Positions 3,481-54,037 of a stretch of 64,000 nt of DNA are shown one piece after another. The stretch comes from Paucisalibacillus globulus (GTDB taxonomy: Bacteria; Bacillota; Bacilli; Bacillales; Amphibacillaceae). Position numbers and translations under genes: made by a program. The stretch's first letter is position 1; each line of letters starts with the position of its first letter. The stretch is from positions 55,736-119,735 of the forward strand of contig NZ_LT855390.1 in assembly GCF_900184735.1 (NCBI RefSeq). The letters run 5' to 3'. A model generated the notes under the pieces. That model saw only the letters and a list, made by a program, of their open reading frames with translations. It did not search any database and was not told the DNA's origin.

Positions 3481-3632
3481 CCCCCTGATTATTCCCACTA
3501 GATTTCTTCCGAATGGAAGAAATCCTTTCTCATTAATATAATCGAATCCAATTTGTGTTAGGTGGCAAGATTATAGTTGAATTTTTTTAGTAAGGGTAGA
3601 ACCAAGGAGAAGTTCTACCCATACATCAAAAA
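3481..3632. repeat. intergenic dispersed repeat with a hairpin
   Basis: TTTCTTCC (3504-3511) and GGAAGAAA (3516-3523) form a hairpin. It is followed by ATAATCGAA and GTTAGGTGGCAAGATTA. The same order of blocks (hairpin, TAATCGAA, GTAAGGTGGCAAAATTA) recurs near 45690-45770. A fragment ACCTGTCCCC of the REP-like family lies at 3476-3486. I see no gene here. Confidence 0.5.
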
Positions 3633-14720: not shown

Positions 14721-14783
14721 CTGCCCAGTTAGCACAATAAGCGTTTGATCATGTTAAACTAAAGCACCCGTTCGTATTATAAG
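14721..14783. repeat. paired dispersed repeat (CCCGTTAG family), copy D
   Basis: Two cores lie about 43 bp apart in the same orientation: CTGCCCAGTTAGCACAATAAG at 14721-14741 and AAGCACCCGTTCGTATTATAAG at 14762-14783. Copy E (15887-15952) has the same two-core layout, which suggests the two-core unit is the complete form. Confidence 0.6.
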
Positions 14784-14837
14784 GTTAACCAGAAATTACT
14801 GGTTGACCATTTTTTATATGGTCTTATCATTTACATT

Positions 14838-15018
14838 GTAGCCGGGGTAGAACGGAAGCACCCGTGGGACTTGATCCCGTCAGCTAAACTGTTCGCCCCC
14901 TACTTGTAGAAACATGATTGAGGCTGGTTGGGACAAGGATCCCGTATAACAAGCGAAGCTGTGATACTACAAGAAGGATTAGGGGTACCGGCAAATACTT
15001 CTTAGGAGGAGATAGTTC
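14838..15018 (+). ncRNA. IS110-type 5' noncoding region, candidate bridge RNA locus
   Basis: About 180 nt lie between the likely left end of the IS110 relic and its start codon. Several short hairpins are visible, including GGGACTTGATCCCG and a second GGGACAAGGATCCCG. IS110 recombinases are guided by a bridge RNA transcribed from this position, so the region may encode one. The boundaries are approximate and expression is not shown. Confidence 0.4.
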
Positions 15019-31199: not shown

Positions 31200-32036
31200 A
31201 TGAAAAAGTCAATAAGATTGGTAGCTGCTATTGCATCAGTAGCCGTTTTATCTTTTATCTTAATTTATACTTTTATTGGAAAAGACATGCTAGGTCAAGA
31301 TGAAATACTAGTTTCCCAGCATAGTCTAAAAGATGTTCAACGAGATGAAGTAAAAGAAGGTACAAAGGGGATTAAGGTATTTCAAGAGTTAGCTGAACAA
31401 AAACGCCAAGAAGAAGAGCAATTGCGTTTGGAACAAGAGAAACTGGAACAGGAAAGAATAGCGAAAGAAAAGCTTGAACAAGAAAAATTGAAGAAAGAAG
31501 AGGAGGAAAAAAGTCGTATAGCAGAATCAACTCTTGAAGAAGAAAAACAAGAAACCGTAGTACAGAAGAAACAAGAAAATACTAGTCAACCAAAGCCAAA
31601 GACGGAAGAAAAAAAGGAAGCACCAAAGTCAAAACAGCCTTCAACAGGTTATCCAGGAATTAGTACTTATGAAAATGAAGTAGTTCGGTTAACCAATATT
31701 GAGAGGGTAAATAACGGTTTACCAGAATTAACAATGGATACTAAATTAAGTGAAGTTGCTTGGTATAAGTCACGGGATATGGTTGATGTTGGTTATTTTG
31801 ACCACCAAAGCCCAACTTACGGTTCGCCATTTGATATGATGACACAATTTGGTGTAAGTTACACAGCAGCAGGCGAAAATATTGCCTATGGTTACCCTAC
31901 ACCAGAAGCGGTCGTAGAAGGTTGGATGAATAGTCCAGGGCACCGAGCCAATATATTAAATGAAATGTTTACCCATATTGGAGTTGGTCATGTTTCAGAA
32001 GGTCATTATGCAACACAGATGTTTATGCGGAAGTAA
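31200..32036 (+). CDS. CAP (SCP/PR1) domain protein, YkwD-like
   Basis: 278 residues: an N-terminal membrane helix (about 7-26), then a 100-residue stretch of Glu, Lys and Gln that should form a coiled coil (EEEQLRLEQEKLEQERIAKE), then a CAP domain. The CAP domain shows NIERVNNGLPELTMDTKLSE, YFDHQSPTYGSPFDMM and GENIAYGYPTPEAVVEGWMN. It is membrane-anchored, with the CAP domain outside; CAP proteins in Bacillus are often cell-surface or spore-coat proteins. GAGGTAATTC precedes the ATG. Confidence 0.9.
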   Translation: MKKSIRLVAAIASVAVLSFILIYTFIGKDMLGQDEILVSQHSLKDVQRDEVKEGTKGIKVFQELAEQKRQEEEQLRLEQEKLEQERIAKEKLEQEKLKKEEEEKSRIAESTLEEEKQETVVQKKQENTSQPKPKTEEKKEAPKSKQPSTGYPGISTYENEVVRLTNIERVNNGLPELTMDTKLSEVAWYKSRDMVDVGYFDHQSPTYGSPFDMMTQFGVSYTAAGENIAYGYPTPEAVVEGWMNSPGHRANILNEMFTHIGVGHVSEGHYATQMFMRK

Positions 32037-32065: not shown

Positions 32066-32179
32066 TTAAAACATTAGAATAACATATTAATTTTCTCATC
32101 AAATTCTAATCTTTTTCTCGGAGTTCTCTAATGATTAGAGGATATAGTAAAGATAACGAAATTGAGGGAGGAAATAAAA

Positions 32180-32758
32180 ATGAACAAGAAATTAATTACG
32201 GGTATTGCAACTATCGGCTTACTATTGGGTGGTACTACTATCGCAGCAGCGAGTTTAAATGATAATGTAAATACTACTAAGAAAGATGACGCAAGTGTAA
32301 AAACCGAGGTAGTGAACAAGAAAGAGGAGTTAATCTCCCCTGAAAAAGCAATCGAGATTGCGCTAACTGAGCAAGATGGATATGTTGAAAGTGTTGAATT
32401 AGAAAGAGAACATGGTTATGTGTATTATGAAGTAGATATTGAAAACCCTGATTTAGATGTCTATGTGGATGCAACTACAGGTGAAGTATTACGTGTAGAT
32501 TGGGATGATAAAGATGATCGTTATGACAATGATGACCGTTATGACAATATCAACAAGCAAAAAATTGAAAACATCATCTCGGTAGAAGTGGCGAAGGACA
32601 TTGCTGTATCTGAAATCGGCGGAGAAGTGATGGAAGTAGAACTAGATGAAGATGACGGACGATATGAGTACGAATTAGAAATTAGAACAGACCGTGGTGA
32701 AGCAGATATTACGATTGATGCGGAGTCTGGAGAAATTGTAGAAATTGATATAGATTAA
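32180..32758 (+). CDS. PepSY domain protein
   Basis: 192 residues with a signal peptide (ITGIATIGLLLGGTTIAAA) and two PepSY modules. The first is ISPEKAIEIALTEQDGYVES... with GYVYYEVDIENPD; the second is ISVEVAKDIAVSEIGGEVME... with GRYEYELEIRTDRG. A short repetitive linker DDRYDNDDRYDN lies between them. Such proteins are secreted or surface-bound and often affect peptidase or sensor function. I chose ATG 32180 because GGGAGGA lies 7 nt upstream. Confidence 0.88.
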   Translation: MNKKLITGIATIGLLLGGTTIAAASLNDNVNTTKKDDASVKTEVVNKKEELISPEKAIEIALTEQDGYVESVELEREHGYVYYEVDIENPDLDVYVDATTGEVLRVDWDDKDDRYDNDDRYDNINKQKIENIISVEVAKDIAVSEIGGEVMEVELDEDDGRYEYELEIRTDRGEADITIDAESGEIVEIDID

Positions 32759-35617: not shown

Positions 35618-36190
35618 ATGACTGCTATCAATCTTTCATTTGATGAAATGTGGGATATATTTGTCACTTGTGACCATACATACGATGGTCTATTCTTTAC
35701 GGCTGTCAAAACCACCAACATCTACTGTCGTCCTTCGTGCAAATCTAGAAAGCCAAAGAAGGTTAATGTGGAATTTTATTTTGACAGGAAGGAAGTTGAA
35801 CGTGCTGGCTATCGTGCTTGTAAAAGGTGTCAGCCTGAACTAGCTTATTCTCCACATATTATACTGATTAAAGATACCATTACTTTTTTAGTTAATCATT
35901 CTAAACAAACATTACTATTAAAAGATATTGCAAATCACGTTGGGGTAAGTCCTTTTTATCTTGAACGTGTTTTTAAACAAGAAACCGGTGAAACACCAAG
36001 GACCTATTTAGAAAAAATACGTGTAGATAAGGCTGCACAACTTCTTAAAAACACGAACCGGACCAATCTGGAAATTTGCTATGAGGTTGGATTCCAAAGT
36101 CCTTCCAATTTTTATAAAGTATTTCGTCGTAGGAAAAATTGTTCTCCCAGTGAATATCGAAATCAAATTAGTAAGGAGTTAGTGGAATGA
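35618..36190 (+). CDS. adaA: AdaA-like methylphosphotriester-DNA methyltransferase/regulator
   Basis: 190 residues. The N-terminal Ada zinc domain shows YDGLFFTAVKTTNIYCRPSC with the two further zinc cysteines in YRACKRCQPE (Cys37, 41, 68, 71). Two AraC-type helix-turn-helix units follow (DIANHVGVSPFYLERVF and EICYEVGFQSPSNFYKVF). As in B. subtilis AdaA, repair of methylphosphotriesters should turn it into an activator of the operon. The ATG follows AAAGTGGGG. It overlaps alkA by 4 bp. Confidence 0.93.
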   Translation: MTAINLSFDEMWDIFVTCDHTYDGLFFTAVKTTNIYCRPSCKSRKPKKVNVEFYFDRKEVERAGYRACKRCQPELAYSPHIILIKDTITFLVNHSKQTLLLKDIANHVGVSPFYLERVFKQETGETPRTYLEKIRVDKAAQLLKNTNRTNLEICYEVGFQSPSNFYKVFRRRKNCSPSEYRNQISKELVE

Positions 36191-37095
36191 GATGGCTAGA
36201 TGATGGAAGTACACTTGAGATTTTCCCGCCGAAGGAATTCGATTTTGGGGAATGCCTCGTTTTCTTAGGAAAATCGGAGGGGGAAGTATTACATTCGATA
36301 AAGGATGGCTATTTATATAAACTGATTAAAATAGATGACGAATTGATTTTACTCAAAATAGGGAGTAACAATTATTCCATTCAAGTAGAATTCCCAATTG
36401 GTACACCATCTGAAACGGCTCGAGAAGAGGTTGCAGATTATATTTGGGAGTGGTTTGATCTCGGTCAAAATTTGGAAGAATTTTATGAAGTGGCGCGTAA
36501 CGATGCAATTCTAGCGCCAATAGCCAATACCTACTATGGATTGCGGATTATTTGTATTCCAGATTTATTTGAAGCGTTAACTTGGGCAATACTAGGCCAG
36601 CAAATTAACTTAACTTTTGCCTATAAGTTAAAGAAACGATTCGTAGAACAATATGGAGAGTCAATAACCTATGATGGTCAAATCTTTTGGTTATTCCCAA
36701 CGCATGAGAAAATAGCTGAATTAGACATAGAAGATTTGAAGAAACTTCAGTTCAGTACTAGGAAGGCAGAATATATAATTGGAGTCGCAGGTGCAATCAG
36801 TGATGGTCGGTTATCTAAGGAGAAGTTGCTCCAACTGAAAGATTATAGACAAGTTCATCAATCATTAGTATCCATTAGAGGTGTGGGGGCATGGACGGCA
36901 GATTATGTCATGATGAAGTGTTTGCATTATCCATCTGCATTTCCAATCGCTGACGTTGGGCTACATAATGCCATTAAGCAGCAGCTGGGGCTTGAAAGTA
37001 AACCAACTATAGATGAAATCGAAACGATGGCAATAAACTGGAAAGGTTGGGAAGCCTATGCAACCTTTTATTTATGGAGGTCTTTGGATGAGTAA
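36187..37095 (+). CDS. alkA: DNA-3-methyladenine glycosylase II (AlkA-like)
   Basis: 302 residues. The C-terminal HhH-GPD domain has the hairpin LVSIRGVGAWTADYVMM with the catalytic Asp in FPIADVGLHNAI. It removes alkylated purines in base-excision repair. It overlaps adaA by 4 bp and adaB by 8 bp: a translationally coupled three-gene alkylation-damage operon like the B. subtilis ada/alkA set, with a changed gene order. Confidence 0.92.
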   Translation: MRWLDDGSTLEIFPPKEFDFGECLVFLGKSEGEVLHSIKDGYLYKLIKIDDELILLKIGSNNYSIQVEFPIGTPSETAREEVADYIWEWFDLGQNLEEFYEVARNDAILAPIANTYYGLRIICIPDLFEALTWAILGQQINLTFAYKLKKRFVEQYGESITYDGQIFWLFPTHEKIAELDIEDLKKLQFSTRKAEYIIGVAGAISDGRLSKEKLLQLKDYRQVHQSLVSIRGVGAWTADYVMMKCLHYPSAFPIADVGLHNAIKQQLGLESKPTIDEIETMAINWKGWEAYATFYLWRSLDE

Positions 37096-37582
37096 ATTAC
37101 ATAAGTTGGATTATCAATCACCTATAGGAATTCTAGAAATAATCGGGACAGAGGAAGCTGTAGTGTCTATTCTATTCTCTGAGAATGACGAAATAGAGAA
37201 TGTAAGGGGTGATGATACTCCAAAAGTGTTGGAACTTTGCTATCTTCAATTAGATGAATATTTTAAAGGAGAGCGGCGTGAATTTTCATTCCCATACCAA
37301 ATGGAGGGGACAGATTTCCAAAAGTCGGTGTGGAATGCATTAAAGGAAATGCCCTATGGCGAAACGGGATCCTATAAGGATATTGCGGTTTCTATTGGAA
37401 ATGAAAAAGCAATCCGAGCGGTAGGAAGTGCGAATGGGAAAAACAAGTTGAGTATCGTGATCCCGTGTCATCGGATTATTGGTACTAATGGGAAATTGAC
37501 TGGATATGCTGGTGGCGTGTGGAGGAAGGAATGGTTGCTTGAGCATGAAAAGAGGTCCATGGGGACAGGTTCCTTGGCTTAA
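37088..37582 (+). CDS. adaB: methylated-DNA-protein-cysteine methyltransferase
   Basis: 164 residues. The acceptor site IPCHRIIG is intact and the DNA-binding RAVGSANGKNKLS helix is present. It transfers methyl groups from O6-methylguanine to its own Cys. ATG 37088 has ATGGAGG just upstream. The last residues, MGTGSLA, are not part of the family: they are encoded by a REP-like hairpin (37555-37609) whose left arm runs through the stop codon. A second, broken copy of this gene's 3' end lies at 45803-45917. Confidence 0.92.
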   Translation: MSKLHKLDYQSPIGILEIIGTEEAVVSILFSENDEIENVRGDDTPKVLELCYLQLDEYFKGERREFSFPYQMEGTDFQKSVWNALKEMPYGETGSYKDIAVSIGNEKAIRAVGSANGKNKLSIVIPCHRIIGTNGKLTGYAGGVWRKEWLLEHEKRSMGTGSLA

Positions 37583-37609
37583 AAAGCCGAGGAACCTGTC
37601 CCCATGGAC
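37555..37609. repeat. REP-like hairpin at the end of adaB
   Basis: GTCCATGGGGACAGGTTCCT... and its complement form a 26-bp stem with a 3-nt loop. The left arm contains the last adaB codons and stop. Related hairpins lie at 46380-46429 and 46452-46474. Confidence 0.85.
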
Positions 37610-37810
37610 TTAATTCATAAATTGTCAATTTCTTCAGCAAGTAAAATAATCCAGCAATGATAACTTCGCGCTCCATTCAAATTCCCCTAACACTCAAGTA
37701 GTTCCTTCTTTAAAATCATTTCCAGAAAAGTAATAATAATCTACTGCGATTCCAACAATAATCTAGTACAATATACTTATAATTACTGTGAAAATTTAGG
37801 AGTGTAACGA

Positions 37811-38827
37811 TTGAAATCTATTAAAAGACAATTAGCTGGGTTTTCCAGGAAAACAATTCGTTTGGATGAACTTGAAGATATTATGAAAGAAGTTTTACAT
37901 ACATATGAGGACTTTGCTGAGGCGGTTCTAGAGTTGGAGACTGTAGGTATTTTAAATATGGTTAAATCTAAAGGTAGGACATCTAGAGTACCGTCATTAG
38001 CATTTCAATACCGCATTAATAAAAGTCACTTAGCCGAAAGCCACCATAAACAACTACAGCAATATCGATTGAGCTTACACCCTCTCCTTAATCTAGATTA
38101 TTACTATCATCACGATCCGTCTATTTGGGACAAGGATCGATACTATATAATGAAGTTAGATGACTATTTAAAAACAGAAGACCTTCCACCAGAGCCAGTG
38201 CCAGCACCTGAAAGAAGCTTTGAATTAGTAGGTGATGAGAAGTGGATTACGGAAAAAGGAGGAAAAGAACTATTAGAAAGAGTAGGTCTTTTTGATAGAT
38301 TGAACATTATTCCTGTTTCTGAACCGCTAATGTTTGCGATTAATCCCAATAAGGTAATGGCTCCCACACAATATCATCTCATCGTCGAAAACAAAACAAC
38401 GTATCAAGGGTTGCTTCCGACTCTTCCTGAAACTATATTTGCGACTCTTATATATGGGGCTGGTAAAGCTGTGATTAAATGTATTGAACAATTTCCTCTA
38501 CAGTATCCGGTAGAGGCTAATCACCAATTATATTACTTTGGTGACTTGGATAAAGAAGGGATTTCGATTTGGTATTCCTTATTTAAGAAGCAATCTATTA
38601 GACTAGCTTTGCCTTTTTATCTGGCTTGTTTAGAGAAAGAAGAGGCAAGGGGGAAGGAATATCAGAAGGAAAATAAGGAAGCCCAGGACAGATTCTTATC
38701 CTATTTTGCCATAGAGCAACAACATCAAATTCGTTCCCTACTAAAGAACGGATTCTACCATCCACAAGAAACATTAAAAACTAGAGAGCTACAAGAGATT
38801 TGGAGGGAGTCGAATTGGAACAGCTAG
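37811..38827 (+). CDS. jetD: Wadjet anti-plasmid system protein JetD (Toprim nuclease)
   Basis: 338 residues. An N-terminal winged-helix-like region is followed by a DUF2220/Toprim domain. The Toprim acid is E193 in LIVENKTTYQG, the DxD is in YYFGDLDKEGISIW (about 244). JetD is the topoisomerase VI-like nuclease that cleaves plasmid DNA extruded by the JetABC complex. The start is TTG 37811 with AGGAGTG 6-7 nt upstream. It overlaps jetA by 13 bp. Here jetD is the first gene, while the classical order is A-B-C-D. Confidence 0.85.
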   Translation: MKSIKRQLAGFSRKTIRLDELEDIMKEVLHTYEDFAEAVLELETVGILNMVKSKGRTSRVPSLAFQYRINKSHLAESHHKQLQQYRLSLHPLLNLDYYYHHDPSIWDKDRYYIMKLDDYLKTEDLPPEPVPAPERSFELVGDEKWITEKGGKELLERVGLFDRLNIIPVSEPLMFAINPNKVMAPTQYHLIVENKTTYQGLLPTLPETIFATLIYGAGKAVIKCIEQFPLQYPVEANHQLYYFGDLDKEGISIWYSLFKKQSIRLALPFYLACLEKEEARGKEYQKENKEAQDRFLSYFAIEQQHQIRSLLKNGFYHPQETLKTRELQEIWRESNWNS

Positions 38828-40332
38828 ATTTACAGGATATAACTAGTGGGTACCGGGAGAGAATGAGGAGACTTGCTCTATTTGATCCCTTATTTGATTT
38901 GGACCGTAAAAGGGAAATAGATCAAGGCAATGCTCCTATTGATATGAAGGGACTTGGCTTATTGACATTACTATTCTTTTTCGAGCAAAAATTAATGCGG
39001 CACTATAAGACGGGTGTCAATGAATTAGCCGCCTTTTTACAGCAACTAACAAATAGACAGTATAAGCTAGAGCCATCAGATTATGAACGGTTGGCGAGAG
39101 CCATTATTCAGACATTTCGGCCCACAACCGGAAGAAAGCGTAGCTACTCTTTCTATAACTGGGAATCCTCTTCAGATGAACATATTGACTACTCCATTTT
39201 AAAAGCGAACAACTTTGATATGAAAACTAATACACAATATTATACCCTCGATGAAGATGGGCTTGAGCTTGTGTTTGCTACCAAGGAATTTTATAGTGAA
39301 TTTCAATTATCTATTAATCAATTAATGCTCCGTAAGCAATTGGATAAAGGAGAATTTAAAGGAGCACTCAGACAAATTAATGAAATGCATATTGACGTGG
39401 AGAATTTACAGGAACGCATGGTTAAACTCAAGCATGAAATCCAGCGTAGTATCGTTTCAGAAGAGACTTTTGAGAGGTACAAGCAGCTACTAGAAGATAT
39501 CTATGGAAGATTGACACGAGAGGATGAAGAGTTTAAAGAGCTTCGTCTATTTGTCAAGGAGACAAGGGAAAGACTTTTTTCTAAGGATGTGCACAAGAAA
39601 GAAGTAAAAACCTATCAATTAGTTGTTCAGATTAATAGCGAGCTAGAATCGGTCCACTATGAGCACTCTCGATTACTAGAGCAGACATTAGCATTGAAAA
39701 ATACAACCCTGGTTACAGCACAGGAATCTCTTTACTATACAGGAATCCAGGCATTTAACTTCGACCAAGATCTTGTATCACCTGTTGTATCTAACCCGTT
39801 ACCACTGGTGTCCATGGCAGGGGTATTACATCCATTCCTGAAGGTAGAAGAAAATAAGGTGTGGTCGCCATTAACCCTATTTGCAGAACAGAATATAACA
39901 GAGGAACGCGAGACAAATAGACAGCAAGATTTTGTAGAAGTGGACCAAGGAGAGGAGGATGACCCATATCGGAAAGGGGTCATGCAACAATATAAGTTAA
40001 TCATGCAATACTATCTGGATGCAGTTGAAACAAGCGGGGTCAATACATTATCAGGTTTTATGAATTACTTGGAAGAGATAGGGAAATCCGTACTGTATGA
40101 ATACCGGTTGTTTTATGACTTTTGGATGATTCTGCATCAGCGTTCCCCTATAATTCGAGGTGAAATAGAGGGGGAAGAAGAAGGGAAAACCTTATTAAGT
40201 GAGGCATTTCGTTTACTTGGTGACCGGACCTTACTAATTAAAGAAGATAACGGAATAATTAATCGAATAAAGCGCTATTCCATACAAGAGATGAAGATTA
40301 GTTTGGAGGATGAAGATGATGCACTATCCTGA
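38815..40332 (+). CDS. jetA: Wadjet system protein JetA (kleisin/MukF-like)
   Basis: 505 residues. The start is TTG 38815 (GGAGGG 38802-38807 upstream; the in-frame TTG at 38800 precedes it). The N-terminal winged-helix half has LFFFEQKLMRHYKTGVNEL and the middle is a long helical region (INEMHIDVENLQERMVKLKH), as expected for the kleisin subunit that bridges the ATPase heads. It overlaps jetD by 13 bp and jetB by 17 bp, so the operon is tightly coupled. Confidence 0.85.
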   Translation: MEQLDLQDITSGYRERMRRLALFDPLFDLDRKREIDQGNAPIDMKGLGLLTLLFFFEQKLMRHYKTGVNELAAFLQQLTNRQYKLEPSDYERLARAIIQTFRPTTGRKRSYSFYNWESSSDEHIDYSILKANNFDMKTNTQYYTLDEDGLELVFATKEFYSEFQLSINQLMLRKQLDKGEFKGALRQINEMHIDVENLQERMVKLKHEIQRSIVSEETFERYKQLLEDIYGRLTREDEEFKELRLFVKETRERLFSKDVHKKEVKTYQLVVQINSELESVHYEHSRLLEQTLALKNTTLVTAQESLYYTGIQAFNFDQDLVSPVVSNPLPLVSMAGVLHPFLKVEENKVWSPLTLFAEQNITEERETNRQQDFVEVDQGEEDDPYRKGVMQQYKLIMQYYLDAVETSGVNTLSGFMNYLEEIGKSVLYEYRLFYDFWMILHQRSPIIRGEIEGEEEGKTLLSEAFRLLGDRTLLIKEDNGIINRIKRYSIQEMKISLEDEDDALS

Positions 40333-41059
40333 ATCAAAGGTAATGAAGGCTTTTCAACTATATACGCAGCTTGCTCGTGATGGCATGGCAGATCTCGAGG
40401 CAGTCCAACAATACCGTGCTGACGATGATATCCGGGGGCTATTAGAGGCCTTTGGGAGAGAGGTAGATTGTGTCATTGTTACAACGAGTGAGCAAATGTT
40501 TCTAATTCCTGAGACGAGATTGTCTCCTTTTCATGTTAGTAATGATTGGATTAAGCGGAATTACTTGCGATCCGGAGCTACCAATGGTGATATCTATTTA
40601 TTATATTTTGCTAGTATTATTTTATTTGGCACATTCTATGATTCCTACCACAGTCAAGCGCCGACGAGAAATTTTCTTCGTCTAGATGAATGGGTAACGT
40701 CTATTCAAGATCGGATAGAACAACTGAAATCTCACGACGTGGAAGAGTTGAAAGAACTTGAGAAAGAGTTTTCTTATAATTGGGGCTTAATTATTGAGAA
40801 GTGGGATGATATGGATGATGTGAAGGAAACGGCGAAGAAACAGGCTGGTAATACCATCAGTCGATTAAGCTTTATCGATACAGTGAAAAAATTCCTACTG
40901 GATCAGGACTTAATTCAAGAAATCGGTAATGATGAAATTACAATTACGGAAAAGGCAAAGACCATTGTTCAGCGCTTCTTTATGGAAATAGAGTATAACA
41001 AAGGAATATTTGAATTTATTTATGGTTTTGAAAGGGGGAAGGAGCATGCCATCGATTAG
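40316..41059 (+). CDS. jetB: Wadjet system protein JetB (MukE-like)
   Basis: About 247 residues. It has winged-helix-like segments (LLEAFGREVDCVIVTTSEQM; FLLDQDLIQEIGNDEITITE) and a long helix, as in the MukE-like KITE subunits. GGAGG is at 40305-40309, so ATG 40316 (6 nt away) is preferred over ATG 40310. It overlaps jetC by 14 bp. It should bind the JetA kleisin. Confidence 0.82.
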   Translation: MMHYPESKVMKAFQLYTQLARDGMADLEAVQQYRADDDIRGLLEAFGREVDCVIVTTSEQMFLIPETRLSPFHVSNDWIKRNYLRSGATNGDIYLLYFASIILFGTFYDSYHSQAPTRNFLRLDEWVTSIQDRIEQLKSHDVEELKELEKEFSYNWGLIIEKWDDMDDVKETAKKQAGNTISRLSFIDTVKKFLLDQDLIQEIGNDEITITEKAKTIVQRFFMEIEYNKGIFEFIYGFERGKEHAID

Positions 41060-44000
41060 CAAAATTAGGCTAACAAACATTGTCTATGAGGAAGGGAATA
41101 AACGCTATAACGATGAATTGTTTTTATTTGAAAGTCATAATGGAGGCATACTTTTAGAAAATGGTGGCGGGAAAACCGTCCTCATCCAAACAGCCTTACA
41201 AGCTGTTCTCCCCCATGTGGATTTAGCTGATCGAAAAATTAAAAATACCCTATTATTAGAAAATGCTCCAGCACATATTGCTATTGAATGGATTACCCAT
41301 GATAAACCAAGGCGCTATGTCGTGACAGCTGTCACGCTATTTCTGGCAAAGCACGGCTTAGATTCCATCCGTTATGTATATGAGTATGATGCAGGGGATC
41401 CGAATGGCATTGAAGGAATTCCATTTGTTAGAGAAGGCAAAGAGGGAAACCGTCCAGCAGAAAGAGGGGAAATGCAGGATTACTACAGTGGGATGAAAGA
41501 GAAGTCCTCCTTTTTTTCTCATACATTTGACACGATTAAGGAATACAAAGCATTCATCGAAAAGCAGTACCATATTATCTCCAGTGAATGGGAAAGTATT
41601 GTGAAAATTAATAGCACAGAGGGTGGCGTTGAAGCTTTCTTTGACGATTGCAAAAGTACGAATCAGCTATTTGACCGATTATTAATTCCTACTGTGGAGG
41701 ATTCGATTGTCGGCCATAACAAAGCGATGTTTGCAGATATGTTTGAAAAGCAGAACCAGAGCTTTAAGAATTATAAAAAATTAAAACAAACTATCGAAGA
41801 GAATAAGCGGATACAAGAAAAATTAGAGAACTACGTGATGACCTTTGAAAAGCTCCATCATAAGCAGCAAGCATACCAGAAGGCGAAACAACAAGCAAAA
41901 GGAGTTTGGAACGTAACCCTTTCTCAAAAGCAGCAAATGACAGCTGAATTAGCCGAAAGCTCACGGATGCTGAAGGAATGGGAAGCTGACCATAGAATGC
42001 ATAAGGTTAAAGCAGCTTCATATGAGATTGCTGTCGAAAAAGCTACATTAGAAGAAAAGGAAACAGCATACAATACCATGCTTGCTCATCAGTTAAATAA
42101 AGAAGAAGAACGAGATACCCATCAAAAGAATTACTATTCGCTAAAGCTTGCTAAGTATAAAGTAGAGATGAAGGAAGAACAAGATAAACTAGCATTTGCC
42201 GAGGAAAAACTTGCAGATTTAGAACAGGACGAAGAATTGTTCGACCTACAGGAGTCATTAGAGGAAGCAAATCAGTCCTTATTAGGAAGCTACCTAGAAG
42301 AAATTGAAAAAATAGATCGAGAAAAACAAGGGCTAACGTATCAGCTTAATCCTATCTTGAAACAAATCGAACAATATTCAATTAGTAAATCTGCATTAGA
42401 TGACCAAATAAACGAAATGAAACAACGGCTTTCTGCAATCAACGAACGGATACGGGCTCGGACAGAAGATATGGAAAAGCTCCAACAGCAGATCCTTGCT
42501 AATCCACAACAAGAGCAAGTCACTATCGAATTAAAGAAGTGGCAGGAGCGTAGTAATCATCTTGATCAGGAAGTAGTGCGTTTGAATCAGGAAGTGAAGC
42601 AGCTTAACTTGCAGATTGGGGAAGCGGAAGAACAATGGGATAAACTATTGGAAGAGCATACAGAAATAGAGAGGAACAAGAATGACGTATCATTTAAACT
42701 GAGCGAATTAGATGCTGCCCAAGGGAATGTTATTACTCGCTTAGCAGGCTTACGTCAGCAATGGGCCAGTTTTGAGGATATTTATACAGCACAGCAAACC
42801 ATTGAAACAAGAATACTTGAACAACTAGAAAAGCAGAAAAAAGAACGGAATACTCTCTTGTTCAAAGAACGCCTTGCTTATCGCTTTGTAGATGATTATG
42901 GTAATCAGGATGTGTTTTTTTCTGATACCTTTCTAGCAGAACAGCTAGCATCATGGAAAAATCAGTTTGGTTTTATTGTAACAGGTGTTGAATATCTGCA
43001 GAACCTAAATGATGAAGAACGAAAGAAGCGTAAGGATTTTCCCCTTTGGCCATTGACACTGGTCACAACGAATAAATCTAAGCAACAACTGCTGGAGAAA
43101 CTGAACCACATATCAGATCGTTTGCAGTTTCCGATAAGTGTTTTGACGACAGAAGAGGCGCTTCAAGTGGACGAAAGCCCGGGGCATGACTGGGTTGCAC
43201 CAAAGCATTGGAATCACAATCTAGAAACAGAGTACTTTACGAATTGGAAGGTCCAGTTAAGAAGTGATGCCCATGCCATAACAGGACTAAGGGAGCAGAA
43301 AGAAAAAGAGCTTACAGACTGGCAGGATGCATGGAAAGCATTTCAACAGTTCTTAAAAACGTATCCTTATGAATTTTATTCTAGTCTAAGCACCGAGCAA
43401 TCCGAGTGGAAGAATCGCTTAGAGGATGTCGATCTACGAATTAAATCGATAAAAGCAATAATAACTGAATCACGTTCTATAGTGGATTCTAATAGAACAA
43501 AAATAAAAAATCATTCAGACGAAATGCAAGGTTTGCAAAACAAGATAAAGGAAGGGCTAACCTATCTTTCCTATGAGAAAGAGGTAGAAGAAAATAGTAA
43601 GAGAGAAGAAAACTTGTCTGCAACTTTGCAACAGTTAGAAAAGGATAAGTCTAAGAAAGAGATAGAATTAAAAGGATTTAATGATGAGAAGGATGGTTTA
43701 CAGCAACGAATGTTGGATTTAAGCAACGAAATGAAAATCATCAAGCGTGAGGATGATTATCTAAGGGTAGCGTCACTTAATCCGATATATTCTGGAGATA
43801 GTAAACAAAGTATCAAGAATAAAATACATGATTTGAATCGAAAAATAGACAAAGTCACGGTTACTCAAGGGGAATGGATCGCAAAGCAGGAAGCTGCCAA
43901 GCAAGCACTGAAAAAGTTACAAACACAATTGGATGAGATTCGAAATCAACAAAGTGACTTAGATTATGAACAGGTATTTCCGAGTGATGGGGATCAATGG

Positions 44001-45458
44001 ATGGAAACTCTATTGACTAAAATGAAAGAGTTGAATGAAGAATTGACTGCCCTGAATCAAGAAGTGCAACAAGCACTTTCTGAAAAGGAAAAACAAAAAG
44101 GAAAATATGAATTAAAACTAGAACAGTTTAAGAAAGATTATCTAAGCCAAGAGCTTATATCATTTGAGCATTCCCTTGATGAAATCTATCAATCATTACA
44201 GAAGGAAAATACAAAGCTCTTAGAAAGAAAAGACTATATTAATAAGCAGATAGACCGAATTAATACTCAGCTCGAAAGTATCTCCAAGGCTGAACGGGAG
44301 CTAGAAAGATATATCGAGAGCCATCACTTTAATTCTCCAGACCTTTCCGAAATTGGACTGACGGAAGAACAGCAGCTAGATTTTAATTATCAACGCAAAA
44401 AGTATGTGAAAGCTGTTATAGAGGAAATGAGAAATAGGAAAGAAGAGATGAATGAGGAAGCGACCCAGGTACAAGCAGAAAAAGAGTATGTCCGGGATTT
44501 TTGTAGGAAAGAGATTTCAGATGTTAAGCTTCAACAAATGGCGATAAACGGGGTGGAGCATAAGCATACGTACGAAGATGTGATCTCATTTAAGAATAAT
44601 ATGTTAACCAGTATTGAACGAATCACGAAATATGCCAATGAGCATATAAGAAAAAGTGATGAAGACCTGCAGTTGTTTATTAATCAAATTCATTCCCATC
44701 TCTATACGATTGTAGAGGAATTGAAGCAGATCCCTAATAAAACGAAGGTCAAAGTAATCGATGATTGGAAACCAATCTTTTCGTTCTCCATACCAGAGTG
44801 GGACGAAGATGTGGCTAAGACTAGAATCAGAGATTATATCGAATGGATTCTGCAGCAGCTAGAGTCAGAACGATATCTTAATGACCAAGGAATGCAGGAT
44901 GAAGGAAAGGTTAGAAATGATGTAGAGATGTGGCTTCAGACGAAATCATTATTGCAAGTCGTCATGAATAATGAAGTCATGAAGGTTAATTGTAGAAAAG
45001 TGACCAATGATAATCATGTGACATCGAGATCCTACTCCTGGGAACAGAGTAATGTTTGGTCAGGAGGAGAAAAGTGGAGTAAGAATATGACACTTTTCTT
45101 AGGTATTCTAAATTATGTAGCGGAGAAGAAGCAGCATCTACAGGCAAATATGAAACGCCATCGAGCAGTTATATTAGATAACCCATTCGGGAAAGCATCT
45201 AGTGATCATGTATTAAATCCAGTATTTTTCGTTGCTGAGCAGCTTGGCTTCCAAATCATCGCTCTTACTGCACATGCAGAAGGGAAATTTTTACAGGATT
45301 ACTTCCCAGTCATCTATAGCTGCCGTCTAAGGTCATCACAAGACTCCGGGAAGAAAGTGATGACAAAAGAGAAATGGCTCCATCATGCATATTTCCAAGA
45401 CCATGAACCAGAAGGGCTTGAGAGGCTGGGTGAGGTGGAGCAGATGGAATTGTTCTGA
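41046..45458 (+). CDS. jetC: Wadjet system protein JetC (SMC/MukB-like ATPase)
   Basis: 1,470 residues, one of the longest genes here. Walker A is ENGGGKT (about 38-44). Long heptad-rich coiled coils fill the middle on both sides of a central non-coiled (hinge) region. At the C-terminus are an ABC-type signature WSGGEKWSKN (about 1337-1346) and Walker B AVILDNPFG (about 1373-1381), with Asn after the Asp where the canonical SMC motif has Glu. It is the loop-extruding motor that recognises circular plasmids. I chose ATG 41046 because AAGGAG lies directly upstream. Confidence 0.86.
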   Translation: MPSISKIRLTNIVYEEGNKRYNDELFLFESHNGGILLENGGGKTVLIQTALQAVLPHVDLADRKIKNTLLLENAPAHIAIEWITHDKPRRYVVTAVTLFLAKHGLDSIRYVYEYDAGDPNGIEGIPFVREGKEGNRPAERGEMQDYYSGMKEKSSFFSHTFDTIKEYKAFIEKQYHIISSEWESIVKINSTEGGVEAFFDDCKSTNQLFDRLLIPTVEDSIVGHNKAMFADMFEKQNQSFKNYKKLKQTIEENKRIQEKLENYVMTFEKLHHKQQAYQKAKQQAKGVWNVTLSQKQQMTAELAESSRMLKEWEADHRMHKVKAASYEIAVEKATLEEKETAYNTMLAHQLNKEEERDTHQKNYYSLKLAKYKVEMKEEQDKLAFAEEKLADLEQDEELFDLQESLEEANQSLLGSYLEEIEKIDREKQGLTYQLNPILKQIEQYSISKSALDDQINEMKQRLSAINERIRARTEDMEKLQQQILANPQQEQVTIELKKWQERSNHLDQEVVRLNQEVKQLNLQIGEAEEQWDKLLEEHTEIERNKNDVSFKLSELDAAQGNVITRLAGLRQQWASFEDIYTAQQTIETRILEQLEKQKKERNTLLFKERLAYRFVDDYGNQDVFFSDTFLAEQLASWKNQFGFIVTGVEYLQNLNDEERKKRKDFPLWPLTLVTTNKSKQQLLEKLNHISDRLQFPISVLTTEEALQVDESPGHDWVAPKHWNHNLETEYFTNWKVQLRSDAHAITGLREQKEKELTDWQDAWKAFQQFLKTYPYEFYSSLSTEQSEWKNRLEDVDLRIKSIKAIITESRSIVDSNRTKIKNHSDEMQGLQNKIKEGLTYLSYEKEVEENSKREENLSATLQQLEKDKSKKEIELKGFNDEKDGLQQRMLDLSNEMKIIKREDDYLRVASLNPIYSGDSKQSIKNKIHDLNRKIDKVTVTQGEWIAKQEAAKQALKKLQTQLDEIRNQQSDLDYEQVFPSDGDQWMETLLTKMKELNEELTALNQEVQQALSEKEKQKGKYELKLEQFKKDYLSQELISFEHSLDEIYQSLQKENTKLLERKDYINKQIDRINTQLESISKAERELERYIESHHFNSPDLSEIGLTEEQQLDFNYQRKKYVKAVIEEMRNRKEEMNEEATQVQAEKEYVRDFCRKEISDVKLQQMAINGVEHKHTYEDVISFKNNMLTSIERITKYANEHIRKSDEDLQLFINQIHSHLYTIVEELKQIPNKTKVKVIDDWKPIFSFSIPEWDEDVAKTRIRDYIEWILQQLESERYLNDQGMQDEGKVRNDVEMWLQTKSLLQVVMNNEVMKVNCRKVTNDNHVTSRSYSWEQSNVWSGGEKWSKNMTLFLGILNYVAEKKQHLQANMKRHRAVILDNPFGKASSDHVLNPVFFVAEQLGFQIIALTAHAEGKFLQDYFPVIYSCRLRSSQDSGKKVMTKEKWLHHAYFQDHEPEGLERLGEVEQMELF

Positions 45459-45802
45459 AACCAGGCATTTGCTAGTCAAACTTTGTGAGAGAAAAGTGAA
45501 GGTAATTGAGGTCTTGCCCCAATTACCAGTATTCTAGTAGTGAATCTCAAGAATTCAACCCAAAGAATTTAGAGTGCCATCTACTGTAGCAAGATGGAAT
45601 GTAGTTACATCCTACGCCTCATTGCTTTAGAGCGACTAAAGTCGTTAGAGGAACTCTTCCAATACTGCCCAATGGATTTCTAAGTGTATTTCTTCCTGTA
45701 AGGAAGAAATAGGCCGGTTTACCTTTTTAATCGAAATGGATTTGAGTAAGGTGGCAAAATTACTTATTAAATCTTTATTAAATTTTATGATATTGAGCTA
45801 GC
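45459..45802. other. intergenic region after the Wadjet operon
   Basis: No gene. A hairpin GGTAATTG/CAATTACC (45501-45527) follows jetC but lacks a T-run. TTTCTTCC...GGAAGAAA at about 45689-45708, with TAATCGAAATGG and GTAAGGTGGCAAAATTA after it, repeats the block order seen at 3503-3585. Confidence 0.5.
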
Positions 45803-45917
45803 AATAAAATTTCAGTCAATATTCCTGATTATTGGGACAAATGGGAAGTTGACTGGTTATGCTGGCGGGGTGTGGAGGAAGGAATGGTTGATTCGACATG
45901 AGAAGACATTTAAATAG
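45803..45917 (+). pseudogene. remnant of a second adaB/ogt methyltransferase gene (3' end)
   Basis: The nucleotides encode NKISVNIP, then [20 protein letters not shown] and LIRHEKTFK*, which match the adaB C-terminus ([20 protein letters not shown]...). Between P and I, 8 bases are missing, which removes the acceptor Cys-His and shifts the frame. Upstream of 45795 no homology to adaB is visible. About 80% of bases match adaB over the shared 80 bp, so it is not a recent duplicate. Confidence 0.82.
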
Positions 45918-45943
45918 GAAATGAATACATTTCCCAAGAGAGA

Positions 45944-45972
45944 TTGACAGTATAAACATATCAAATTATACT
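45944..45972 (+). promoter_or_regulatory. strong promoter of the antitoxin RNA
   Basis: TTGACA (45944-45949), 17 bp, TATACT (45967-45972): a near-perfect sigma-A promoter pointing at the toxin gene's 3' end. Confidence 0.8.
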
Positions 45973-45978
45973 AATAAT

Positions 45979-46112
45979 AAGAAAAAGGCACTTAGTAGCG
46001 GTAACTACTAAGTACCACAACCACTTACCGCATAAAGAGCGGTTGACCTTTTGATGTTAAGTTAAAAAGAAGTAATCGCTACTGGTCAAAGAGGGCGGTT
46101 ACTTCTTTTTAT
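45979..46112 (+). ncRNA. antitoxin RNA of a type I toxin-antitoxin locus (RatA-like)
   Basis: Transcription from the promoter at 45944 should start near 45979 and stop at the bidirectional terminator 46064-46112, giving an RNA of about 130 nt. Its 3' part is complementary to the 3' end of the toxin mRNA, as in txpA/ratA. The 5' part contains a hairpin CTTAGTAG/CTACTAAG. Confidence 0.6.
46064..46112. terminator. bidirectional terminator of the toxin and antitoxin RNAs
   Basis: AAAAAGAAGTAATCGC and GCGGTTACTTCTTTTT form a 16-bp stem (one G-T pair) with A and T tracts; the toxin's stop codon is inside the right arm. Confidence 0.85.
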
Positions 46113-46206
46113 TTAGAAGGACGACGATTGTTACAATTAGTGTTAATTCGGCTATTAAGAAATAGCTAAATTGTACGAGTAAACTTATTGCTTCGTAGGT
46201 CGTCAT
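46099..46206 (-). CDS. type I toxin, TxpA/BsrG-like small membrane peptide
   Basis: 35 residues: MTTYEAISLLVQFSYFLIAE, a continuing hydrophobic helix and NKKK. This is the 'holin-like toxin' pattern (short start, one membrane helix, basic end). The ATG at 46206 has GGGAGGTGG 7 nt upstream; longer in-frame starts exist but lie in the mRNA leader. The leader contains CCTTAAGAAGG next to the Shine-Dalgarno, so translation is probably held back by structure. The antitoxin RNA overlaps its 3' end. Confidence 0.82.
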   Translation of the reverse strand: MTTYEAISLLVQFSYFLIAELTLIVTIVVLLNKKK

Positions 46207-46266
46207 CCTTACCACCTCCCTTCTTAAGGAAGATGGCCAACCGCCCACTATACTATGTAGTTGTTG

Positions 46267-46294
46267 ATTATATAATATCACATGATGGGTTAAA
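46267..46294 (-). promoter_or_regulatory. probable toxin promoter
   Basis: TTTAAC, 16 bp, TATAAT (minus strand, 46294-46289 and 46272-46267). A weak-looking -35 and a consensus -10 place the start near 46260. Confidence 0.45.
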
Positions 46295-46308
46295 TTACAT
46301 TAAAATTA

Positions 46309-46321
46309 GAATGTTTGTTCG
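46309..46321 (-). promoter_or_regulatory. LexA/SOS-box-like sequence upstream of the toxin
   Basis: CGAACAAACATTC on the minus strand resembles the Bacillus LexA box (CGAACRNRYGTTYC, two changes). An identical 13-mer lies at the same distance upstream of the second toxin copy (53773-53785). Confidence 0.3.
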
Positions 46322-46379
46322 TGAGTTGCTTTTCGTACACAAAATAAGAGATGAAACGGTCAAAAATCAAAAATGAGGT

Positions 46380-46429
46380 CAACGGGGACAGGTTCCTTGG
46401 CATTTGTGCCAAGGAACCTGTCCCCGTTG
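46380..46429. repeat. REP-like hairpin
   Basis: CAACGGGGACAGGTTCCTTG... with its exact complement: a 23-bp perfect stem and 4-nt loop, between the toxin locus and pbuE. Confidence 0.88.
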
Positions 46430-46444
46430 TACTCTCTTCTTTTA

Positions 46445-47632
46445 TTATATAGCCGAGGTACCTGTCCCCACGGCACTTTCTGCTCTTTCTTTCGGTTTTC
46501 TAGTCAAAGAAAAGACCGCACAAATCAAGGAAAGGATCACAATAGCTCCTCCAAACCAAGACATATGAGATACAGTCCCAGTCTCATTTAACACGATTCC
46601 ACCAAATGCAGAACCTAGAGAGATACCTATTTGTAATGATGAATTATTAAAGCTTTGTTGAATGTCAGATGTAGCAGGATCGGTTTCAATCAGGTAGCTT
46701 TGTTGTGGTGGAGAGAGTGCCCAGCTTAGCGCTCCCCAAACCATCATAACTGGTAGGAAAACAATAAGTGAAAAAGTAGTGAATGGTAATAAGAATAGCA
46801 CTACTGCAAACGAACCGATTACAACGATGATGCTCTTTTTAGCTCCAATCGAATCGGATAAAATTCCCCCGAATGCTCCACCACTTACTGCTGCAATCCC
46901 AAATAATAGATAACAAATACTAATCCAGGTGGAATTCAGATGAAGTTCGGTTTCTAAAAAAGGCGTAAAGTATGCATAAATCGTATAATGTCCTGCTAGT
47001 AAAAACATCGTTGCTAGATGTGCACTACCTAATTTAAAACTAGCCACTGCCTTTAATTGTTGTGAAAGTGGGGTCGTGTTTTCTCCCGGAATTCGCTCGA
47101 AAAAGATGGAAATTAATACAAAGGAACCGATTGATAAAATAGCAATTCCAAGAAAAATAACGCGCCAGCCAAATGTATCGGAAATCATGATTCCAAGCGG
47201 AACTCCCATGACTAGTGACGAACTAATTCCCATATAAATTAGACCCACAGCCTTTGCTCGATGTGTTGGAGCAACAATTTTGGCAGCCAGGGTTAGCGAT
47301 AATACAACGATAAGTGCTGTACTCATGGCACTCAATACCCTTGCAAACATCATAAAAGTAAAATTGGGACTGAAATAGGTCATGATATTACTGATGAAAA
47401 AGACAAACAAGGAGATGAGGTATAATTTTTTGCGTTCTATCTTGCTAGTTAGTACTAGTAAAACTGGACCAGCAACGGCATATATAAGTGCAAAAACAGT
47501 GATGAGTTGTCCAGCTGAGCTTAATGTTATATCTAAATCATTTGCGATTGTTGGAAGTATTCCACCAACAATTAATTCAACAAGTCCTGCTGCAATAGTG
47601 GCTAATGCGAGTATAAAAACTTTTAAATTCAT
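46445..47632 (-). CDS. pbuE: purine efflux MFS transporter PbuE
   Basis: 395 residues with 12 helices. [20 protein letters not shown] at the start, the MFS motif and overall length fit the B. subtilis PbuE family (hypoxanthine/adenine exporter). The decisive evidence is the adenine riboswitch directly upstream (47688-47793), which controls pbuE in B. subtilis. Its C-terminal [10 protein letters not shown] is encoded by a REP-like element (46452-46474), so the natural end has been replaced. Confidence 0.87.
46452..46474. repeat. REP-like element forming the 3' end of pbuE
   Basis: GCCGAGGTACCTGTCCCCAC, then GGC: the inverted REP core with GCCG/CGGC ends, reading AVGTGTSA in the pbuE frame. 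Confidence 0.8.
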
Positions 47633-53351: not shown

Positions 53352-53436
53352 TACATACTCTTTGTCGGACTTGAAGTATATCCATTTTGTAGTTTGTATG
53401 TTTGACGGTATATTCATATTAATTTATACTAATAAT

Positions 53437-53570
53437 TAGAAAAGGCATTCAGATAGCGCCAACTATCGAATGCCACAACCACTCACCGCTAAGAGCGGTT
53501 GACCAGTTAGTTGTAATTCAAAAAGAAGTAATCGCCAAACCTAGTCGCAGGGGGCGGTTACTTCTTTTTA
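53437..53570 (+). ncRNA. antitoxin RNA of the second (inactive) toxin locus
   Basis: TTGACG (53402-53407), 17 bp, TATACT (53425-53430) stand where the first locus has its antitoxin promoter. The RNA would run to the terminator 53520-53570 (AAAAGAAGTAATCGCC with GGCGGTTACTTCTTTT). Confidence 0.55.
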
Positions 53571-53671
53571 TTTAGAAGGATAGCGATGATTGTTATTATA
53601 AGTGTTAATCCTGCTATAAAAGAATAGCTGAATTAAACAAGTAAGTTTATTGCCTCGTAAGTCGTCATCAT
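53558..53671 (-). pseudogene. type I toxin, second copy, nonsense mutation
   Basis: MMTTYEAINLLV, then TAA (codon 13, 53633-53635), then FSYSFIAGLTLIITIIAILL and NKKK. The intact copy has CAA (Gln) at that codon. The leader, the ribosome binding site and the surrounding hairpins are as conserved as in the first copy. The peptide cannot be made in full. Confidence 0.85.
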
Positions 53672-53699
53672 TACCACCTCCCTTCATAAGGAAGATGGC

Positions 53700-54037
53700 C
53701 AACCGCCCACTATACTATGTAGTTGATGGTTATATTTTAGCCATACATTTCTTTTTATTCATACAAAAATAGGAATGTTTGTTCGTTTTTGTCATTGAAA
53801 GGTCCATTAGGACAGATTCCTAGGACCAAACCGAGGGAATTTATCCCTATTTACCCTTCGGTGAATAAAAGTGACGGTTCTTGGACTTCAAAATTTGCTT
53901 AGAATTAAGCATGGAAACCATTCCAATACTTCATTAATAATCCAATTCACTCTGTAAATACTAACCAATATGCTATAGTATACAAGCCTTTAATAAAACA
54001 AACTGGCATTAATATACGAAAAGAGACGTGATTAGCC
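53700..54037. other. intergenic region upstream of the DEAD-box gene
   Basis: It contains the toxin leader, a near-perfect copy of the SOS-like 13-mer (53773-53785) and a hairpin GGTCC...TAGGA/TCCTA...GGACC (53801-53827). CTATAGTAT at about 53973-53981 may be the -10 of the helicase gene. No other gene. Confidence 0.45.

Follow-up and report, generated by a model that had tools for sequence, protein, structure and literature searches.

The window analysed here, that is, the whole stretch of 64,000 nucleotides, comes from a genome of 3.92 Mb in 23 contigs, which falls into one genus with Paucisalibacillus globulus DSM 18846 (contig NZ_AXVK01000021.1) by genome search. The locus reads, from left to right, ltaE (minus strand), a CPBP protease-like gene, an adaA-alkA-adaB operon, a palindromic repeat, jetD-jetA-jetB-jetC, a spacer of ~340 bases, the tail of a second adaB, a BsrG-like repeat, more palindromic repeat, an MFS gene (minus strand) and truA. 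From their translations, ltaE and truA are what we take these two genes to be; the other names rest on Pfam, PADLOC and Rfam. The main features are as follows.

35618 to 37582, plus strand: intact adaA-alkA-adaB operon (Pfam PF02805, HTH_18, HhH-GPD and PF01035; tree; sequence)
37555 to 37611, no strand: GGGGACAGGTTCC palindrome, a long hairpin that overwrites the adaB 3' end and bounds the Wadjet segment on the left
37811 to 45458, plus strand: Wadjet type III operon jetD-jetA-jetB-jetC (PADLOC JetD3, JetA3, JetB3 and JetC3)
45484 to 45826, no strand: spacer of ~340 bases between jetC and the tail, without a convincing match
45827 to 45926, plus strand: what is left of a second adaB, comprising the final 29 codons, the stop and ~9 bases after it
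45937 to 46327, minus strand: BsrG-like type I toxin-antitoxin repeat with a small hydrophobic frame (46099-46281, minus strand)
46365 to 46480, no strand: second palindrome (GGGGACAGGT) and a half copy, at the right edge of the segment

The adaA-alkA-adaB operon belongs to the adaptive response to alkylation. Both this intact operon and the four Wadjet genes lie where an earlier sequence-only reading had put them. All four Wadjet genes gave their best scores to PADLOC type III models (E 4.9e-233 for jetA, 9.3e-126 for jetB, 0 for jetC and 1.4e-117 for jetD), which points to a Wadjet type III system (JetABCD). The genes themselves look ordinary, and the only difference from this known system is their place relative to ada between two species. 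Among frames of at least 90 amino acids between 37582 and 45803, the four jet genes were found alone, with no recombinase or integrase.

The 3' end of a second adaB behind jetC, as proposed in the sequence-only reading, was borne out by alignment, shuffles, blast and tree. Bases 45827-45906 could be aligned without gaps to window adaB 37474-37553 with 86% identity and a score of 116, the highest score of 200 single-base shuffles being 56, and the tail is likewise 86% identical to the adaB of P. globulus over these 80 bases. Blast matches extended ~9 bases beyond the stop both in P. globulus (86% over 100 bases, reaching 45926) and in a second relative, G010 (82% over 99 bases, reaching 45925). 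The two tails in the window had been described as matching at about 80%; over the 80 bases that can be aligned, their identity is 86%. The relic frame encodes 29 residues and then reaches a stop at the same place as P. globulus adaB, whereas upstream of the relic the frame is broken by stops. The active-site Pro-Cys-His-Arg and the N-terminal domain of a working AdaB/Ogt are both missing, and what is retained is the C-terminal homology and the stop position of the family.

With regard to the left end of the relic, the fragment begins directly after the Pro-Cys-His-Arg codons, and for this reason it lacks the active-site cysteine. A deletion of eight bases removing Cys-His had been suggested; this is unsupported, since shuffles attained the same alignment score. 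Similarly, the tail had been thought to start at 45803, but the 56 bases before 45827 aligned to adaB no better than shuffles, whose scores reached the observed value in 214, 469 and 147 of 500 cases for the window's own, the P. globulus and the G010 gene, respectively. The relic is a real evolutionary scar, ordinary in kind and with no evident function. It should be noted that the last codons of the intact adaB after His-Glu-Lys (Met-Gly-Thr-Gly-Ser-Leu-Ala) are derived from the palindrome. Because the natural last residues of this gene were lost in this way, the relic may hold more of the original adaB end than the intact gene does.

To characterize the locus in relatives, 11 genomes of the genus were compared. 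The ltaE, ada and MFS genes were common to three of them (the window's own, P. globulus and G010; ltaE in the stretches read), and a jetC relative was present in two of the 11 (the window's own and P. globulus) and absent from G010. In the Wadjet-free G010, one intact adaA-alkA-adaB operon lies between ltaE and the MFS gene, its adaB in the same orientation relative to MFS as in the window. The expectation that Wadjet-free relatives have an ogt-type gene at this position is therefore partly confirmed: G010 does have an adaB there, but as part of a whole ada operon and not as a lone ogt. No genome among the mapped loci carried both tails without Wadjet. A match of the right flank from 45918 onward had also been predicted; the agreement ends ~9 bases past the stop, beyond which the window has the BsrG-like repeat from 45937 and G010 has other genes before MFS. 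These are a methyltransferase gene and a class I tRNA synthetase gene, presumably of the isoleucyl type (L100 2466-5564).

In P. globulus, jetDABC is located left of adaA-alkA-adaB, and the intact adaB thus lies downstream of Wadjet; on this side of Wadjet, where the P. globulus adaB is intact, the window has the tail alone. Window block 37725-45483 was colinear with P. globulus over 7,759 bases by blastn (89% identity). The full order in P. globulus is jet, ada, an iron-type alcohol dehydrogenase gene, a second Wadjet and MFS, so that two different type III Wadjet operons (L042 8560-16316; L085), the second one distant, flank ada in this species. Thus, the same Wadjet operon is found on opposite sides of ada in two species, and both sides of ada are variable. 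The CPBP gene left of ada occurred only in the window's own genome (1 of 11). As for the other genomes, G001 and G004 have ada operons, and this MFS gene was absent from the 18 kb fetched; the G007 contig ends 546 bases past the MFS gene, making that side unreadable; in G009, MFS and truA are otherwise arranged, with no ada in the 31.9 kb read; and G002, G003, G006 and G008, which had distant MFS and adaB matches alone, were left out of locus mapping. Neither jet nor MFS nor ltaE was found in the stretches fetched from five ada-bearing genomes of the family (G074, G101, G143, G147 and G148). Among 10 named loci with a jetC relative (stretches of 9 to 24 kb), ada genes were present nearby in one, that of P. 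globulus.

Which part of the locus came later was analyzed by comparing differences at fourfold sites, the counts being worked back from proportions and the left and right flanks being pooled after the values had been seen. Between the window and P. globulus, ada differed at 92 of 186 sites (0.495) and the left flank (ltaE and 32162-32758) at 89 of 192 (0.464), as against 216 of 749 (0.288) for jet and 83 of 242 for MFS and truA. Accordingly, the difference between ada and the left flank was not significant (p 0.61), whereas that between ada and jet was (p 2e-7), as was that between ada and the right flank (p 0.002). For jet, comparison with the left flank gave a significant difference (p 6e-6) and comparison with the right flank did not (p 0.13). 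A similar picture was obtained with G010, where ada resembled the left flank (p 0.76) but not the right one (0.479 vs 0.246, p 4e-7). Since the right-flank genes are also less diverged, and from G010 too, the low divergence of jet is partly a regional trend of the right side. Constraint on jet is another possible cause, and third-position G+C ranges overlap (0.32-0.39 for jet and 0.26-0.36 for ada). The MFS gene was no nearer to P. globulus than to G010, and no donor right flank is visible. In a tree of nine ada operons (that of G074 incomplete), the window grouped with P. globulus and G010 with support of 100/100, outside the pair formed by these two (87/90). With the cautions above, the ada rate, which is like that of the left neighbours, together with the tree grouping, suggests that the upstream operon is resident-like and that Wadjet would be the later arrival; to judge from these comparisons, the operon looks vertically inherited. 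That the upstream ada operon might be foreign was tested as well and is unsupported by rate and tree.

These results bear on two other orders of events. According to the sequence-only reading, the ada operon and Wadjet entered a resident ogt or ada locus as one block, the resident tail staying behind on its right side. The tail does lie on the MFS side, as would be expected of resident DNA, G010 does have an adaB at the locus, and the CPBP gene, restricted to the window's own genome, sits left of ada. However, the divergence of the upstream ada matches that of its left neighbours and not that of jet, the operon groups with P. globulus and G010 at full support (a donor inside that clade being possible), and the gene order in P. 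globulus is the opposite one. Entry as one block is disfavoured by this divergence, tree and order, and we consider it unlikely. Alternatively, the jet-ada order might be ancestral and Wadjet resident, with a second ada operon and the CPBP gene arriving upstream and G010 having lost Wadjet. Such a history would fit P. globulus, in which the ltaE-MFS locus also carries this Wadjet block, with ada downstream, but between the two species ltaE and ada have each diverged more than jet, and a Wadjet loss is required in G010, where no trace of it was found; this history appears improbable as well.

The relationship between the tail and the intact adaB copies was further investigated. The tail fell in a clade of the window's own, P. 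globulus and G010 adaB (97/99), and the best tree placed it with P. globulus and G010 (79/92), a placement that was not significant: the AU test kept both a tree joining the tail with the own copy (p 0.22) and a tree joining the own, P. globulus and G010 copies without the tail (p 0.19). At shared sites, the tail sides with the own adaB three times and with P. globulus once. Of the 11 differences between the tail and the own adaB, eight fell at third codon positions (binomial p 0.009 vs one third), compared with 5 of 11 between the tail and P. globulus and 5 of 10 between the own copy and P. globulus. The 8/11 suggests that, for most of the time since they separated, both copies were functional genes, although the 5/10 obtained for two intact genes makes this codon test a weak one. 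The same clustering makes a recent duplication followed by decay unlikely, on the basis of 11 differences; the earlier statement that the tails are too diverged for a duplication agrees with it, and the former presence of two adaB copies at the locus is supported.

The two tails could also have been produced by insertion, if a Wadjet element carrying its own adaB end had integrated at the adaB 3' end and displaced the original end to the far side, restoring its target. The relic is a gene end alone, starting from the codon after Pro-Cys-His-Arg, and the two tails are identical over at most ~20 consecutive bases, both of which agree with this scheme. On the other hand, the frames in the segment include no recombinase, the repeat is 14% diverged, and neither the 340-base spacer nor the P. 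globulus order is predicted; we regard target-restoring insertion as very unlikely. A duplication of the att kind made by an integrase does not describe the locus either, as no recombinase occurs among the segment frames of at least 90 amino acids and the tails are 86% identical rather than sharing an identical core.

The origin of the spacer was searched for in the 11 genus genomes (limit E 1), in which the top match outside its own place had E 0.008. When a longer query including the spacer was used against 159 family genomes, with the best four candidates per genome scored, 14 of them matched at E <=0.001, nearly all to the adaB part; G059 and G021 matched ~30 A+T-rich spacer bases (E 1e-4 and 1e-3, respectively). 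The spacer also matched window 3502-3586 (70%, E 2e-5 under relaxed scoring), which looks like a shared hairpin. No match to plasmid records could be found for 45459-46400. On the right of the relic, Rfam RF01412 (BsrG) matched 45991-46266 with 54.5 bits against a gathering cut-off of 55 (E 9.3e-12), and a small hydrophobic frame is present. The BsrG-like repeat occurs in the window at 45937-46327 and at 53402-53786, with 10 matches in the genome (self and partial ones counted). A G010 copy (G010:C16:20429-20824) is situated at the place of the window 53402 copy and is nearer to the 45937 copy (89% vs 81%), and this discrepancy between position and likeness suggests that exchange may have occurred between copies.

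Finally, the palindromic repeats were examined as candidate seams. The exact GGGGACAGGTWCC pattern occurred 26 times in the window's genome, 89 times in P. globulus and once in G010, and the reversed control pattern was not found in any of the three. Nine of the 26 sites lie on the window's contig, and the five exact sites of the window all flank the Wadjet segment, at its left or right edge. P. globulus has three repeat sites in the 37.4 kb that were read; of these, one immediately precedes the Wadjet block on its left and another is found at the MFS end. The left one truncates a gene; the window relative of this gene (31200-32036, left of ltaE) is 40 residues longer. In the window, adaB and the MFS gene each take their final codons from palindromes of this kind (37555-37611 and 46445-46480; the half copy in 46365-46480 encodes the MFS C-terminus), as does the 31200-32036 relative in P. 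globulus (L070 ~14781-14863). Their placement suggests that recombination may have taken place at the palindromic repeats, and the repeats could also have been inserted after the rearrangement. A broader proposal, that repeats written over the 3' ends of genes provide portable seams for crossing over, at which closely related Bacillaceae swap defence operons around ada, leaving relics such as this tail, is in our opinion quite doubtful.

REP-like palindromes with Y1 (RAYT) transposases are a known family. The present repeats resemble it in being long palindromes at gene 3' ends, and Y1_Tnp genes were found in all three genomes searched. Unlike in that family, the two Y1_Tnp matches in the window's genome are on contigs without an exact repeat (C5 and C22). 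In P. globulus, a repeat pair of the GGGGACAGGT type (C14:25682-25734) lies ~400 bases past a Y1_Tnp match (C14:24951-25283), a gene that is a possible RAYT for these palindromes; the single repeat in G010 shares a contig with one Y1_Tnp match, ~5 kb away.

Taken together, the locus is a site of chromosome rearrangement marked by a leftover adaB tail. The relic, the two gene orders and the Wadjet-free relative with one ada operon are demonstrated, and the following history is built on them. Bases 45827-45926 would be all that remains of another ada operon, formerly situated behind the Wadjet type III operon in the arrangement that P. globulus still has, with jetDABC ahead of adaA-alkA-adaB. 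A close relative may have been the source of DNA with Wadjet and then an ada copy, which would have entered the resident locus between its adaB and the MFS gene, possibly through crossover at palindromic repeats. The redundant downstream ada copy would later have been deleted to its last 29 codons, and the type I toxin-antitoxin repeat now adjoins what is left. For this reading as a whole, in which Wadjet and a second, downstream ada operon joined the resident one and the copy was later reduced to a tail, we see about an even chance. We thus favour the reverse of the direction given in the sequence-only reading, although the direction is not proven.

Gene relics are known at the edges of defence islands and hotspots between conserved flanks. 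The present locus is similar in that ltaE, ada and MFS-truA are conserved while the cargo between them varies (a tRNA synthetase gene, Wadjet, a second Wadjet), and in that a gene end is left over at the seam. It differs in that no integrase was found in the segment (frames of at least 90 amino acids) and in that the DNA-repair operon from which the relic derives is also intact next door. In the literature searched, no paper combined Wadjet with an ada operon or with Paucisalibacillus. Among the matches listed, those for the repeat letters were unrelated by title, palindromes with RAYT and Firmicutes gave an unrelated match only, and by title none for Wadjet with hotspot or type III terms dealt with this locus.

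The locus is of help in ordering events, since the same Wadjet operon lies on opposite sides of ada in two species and the relic indicates that two ada copies once met here. If the repeats prove to be seams, defence operons could be moved by way of them without an integrase; if not, the locus would reflect ordinary gene turnover.
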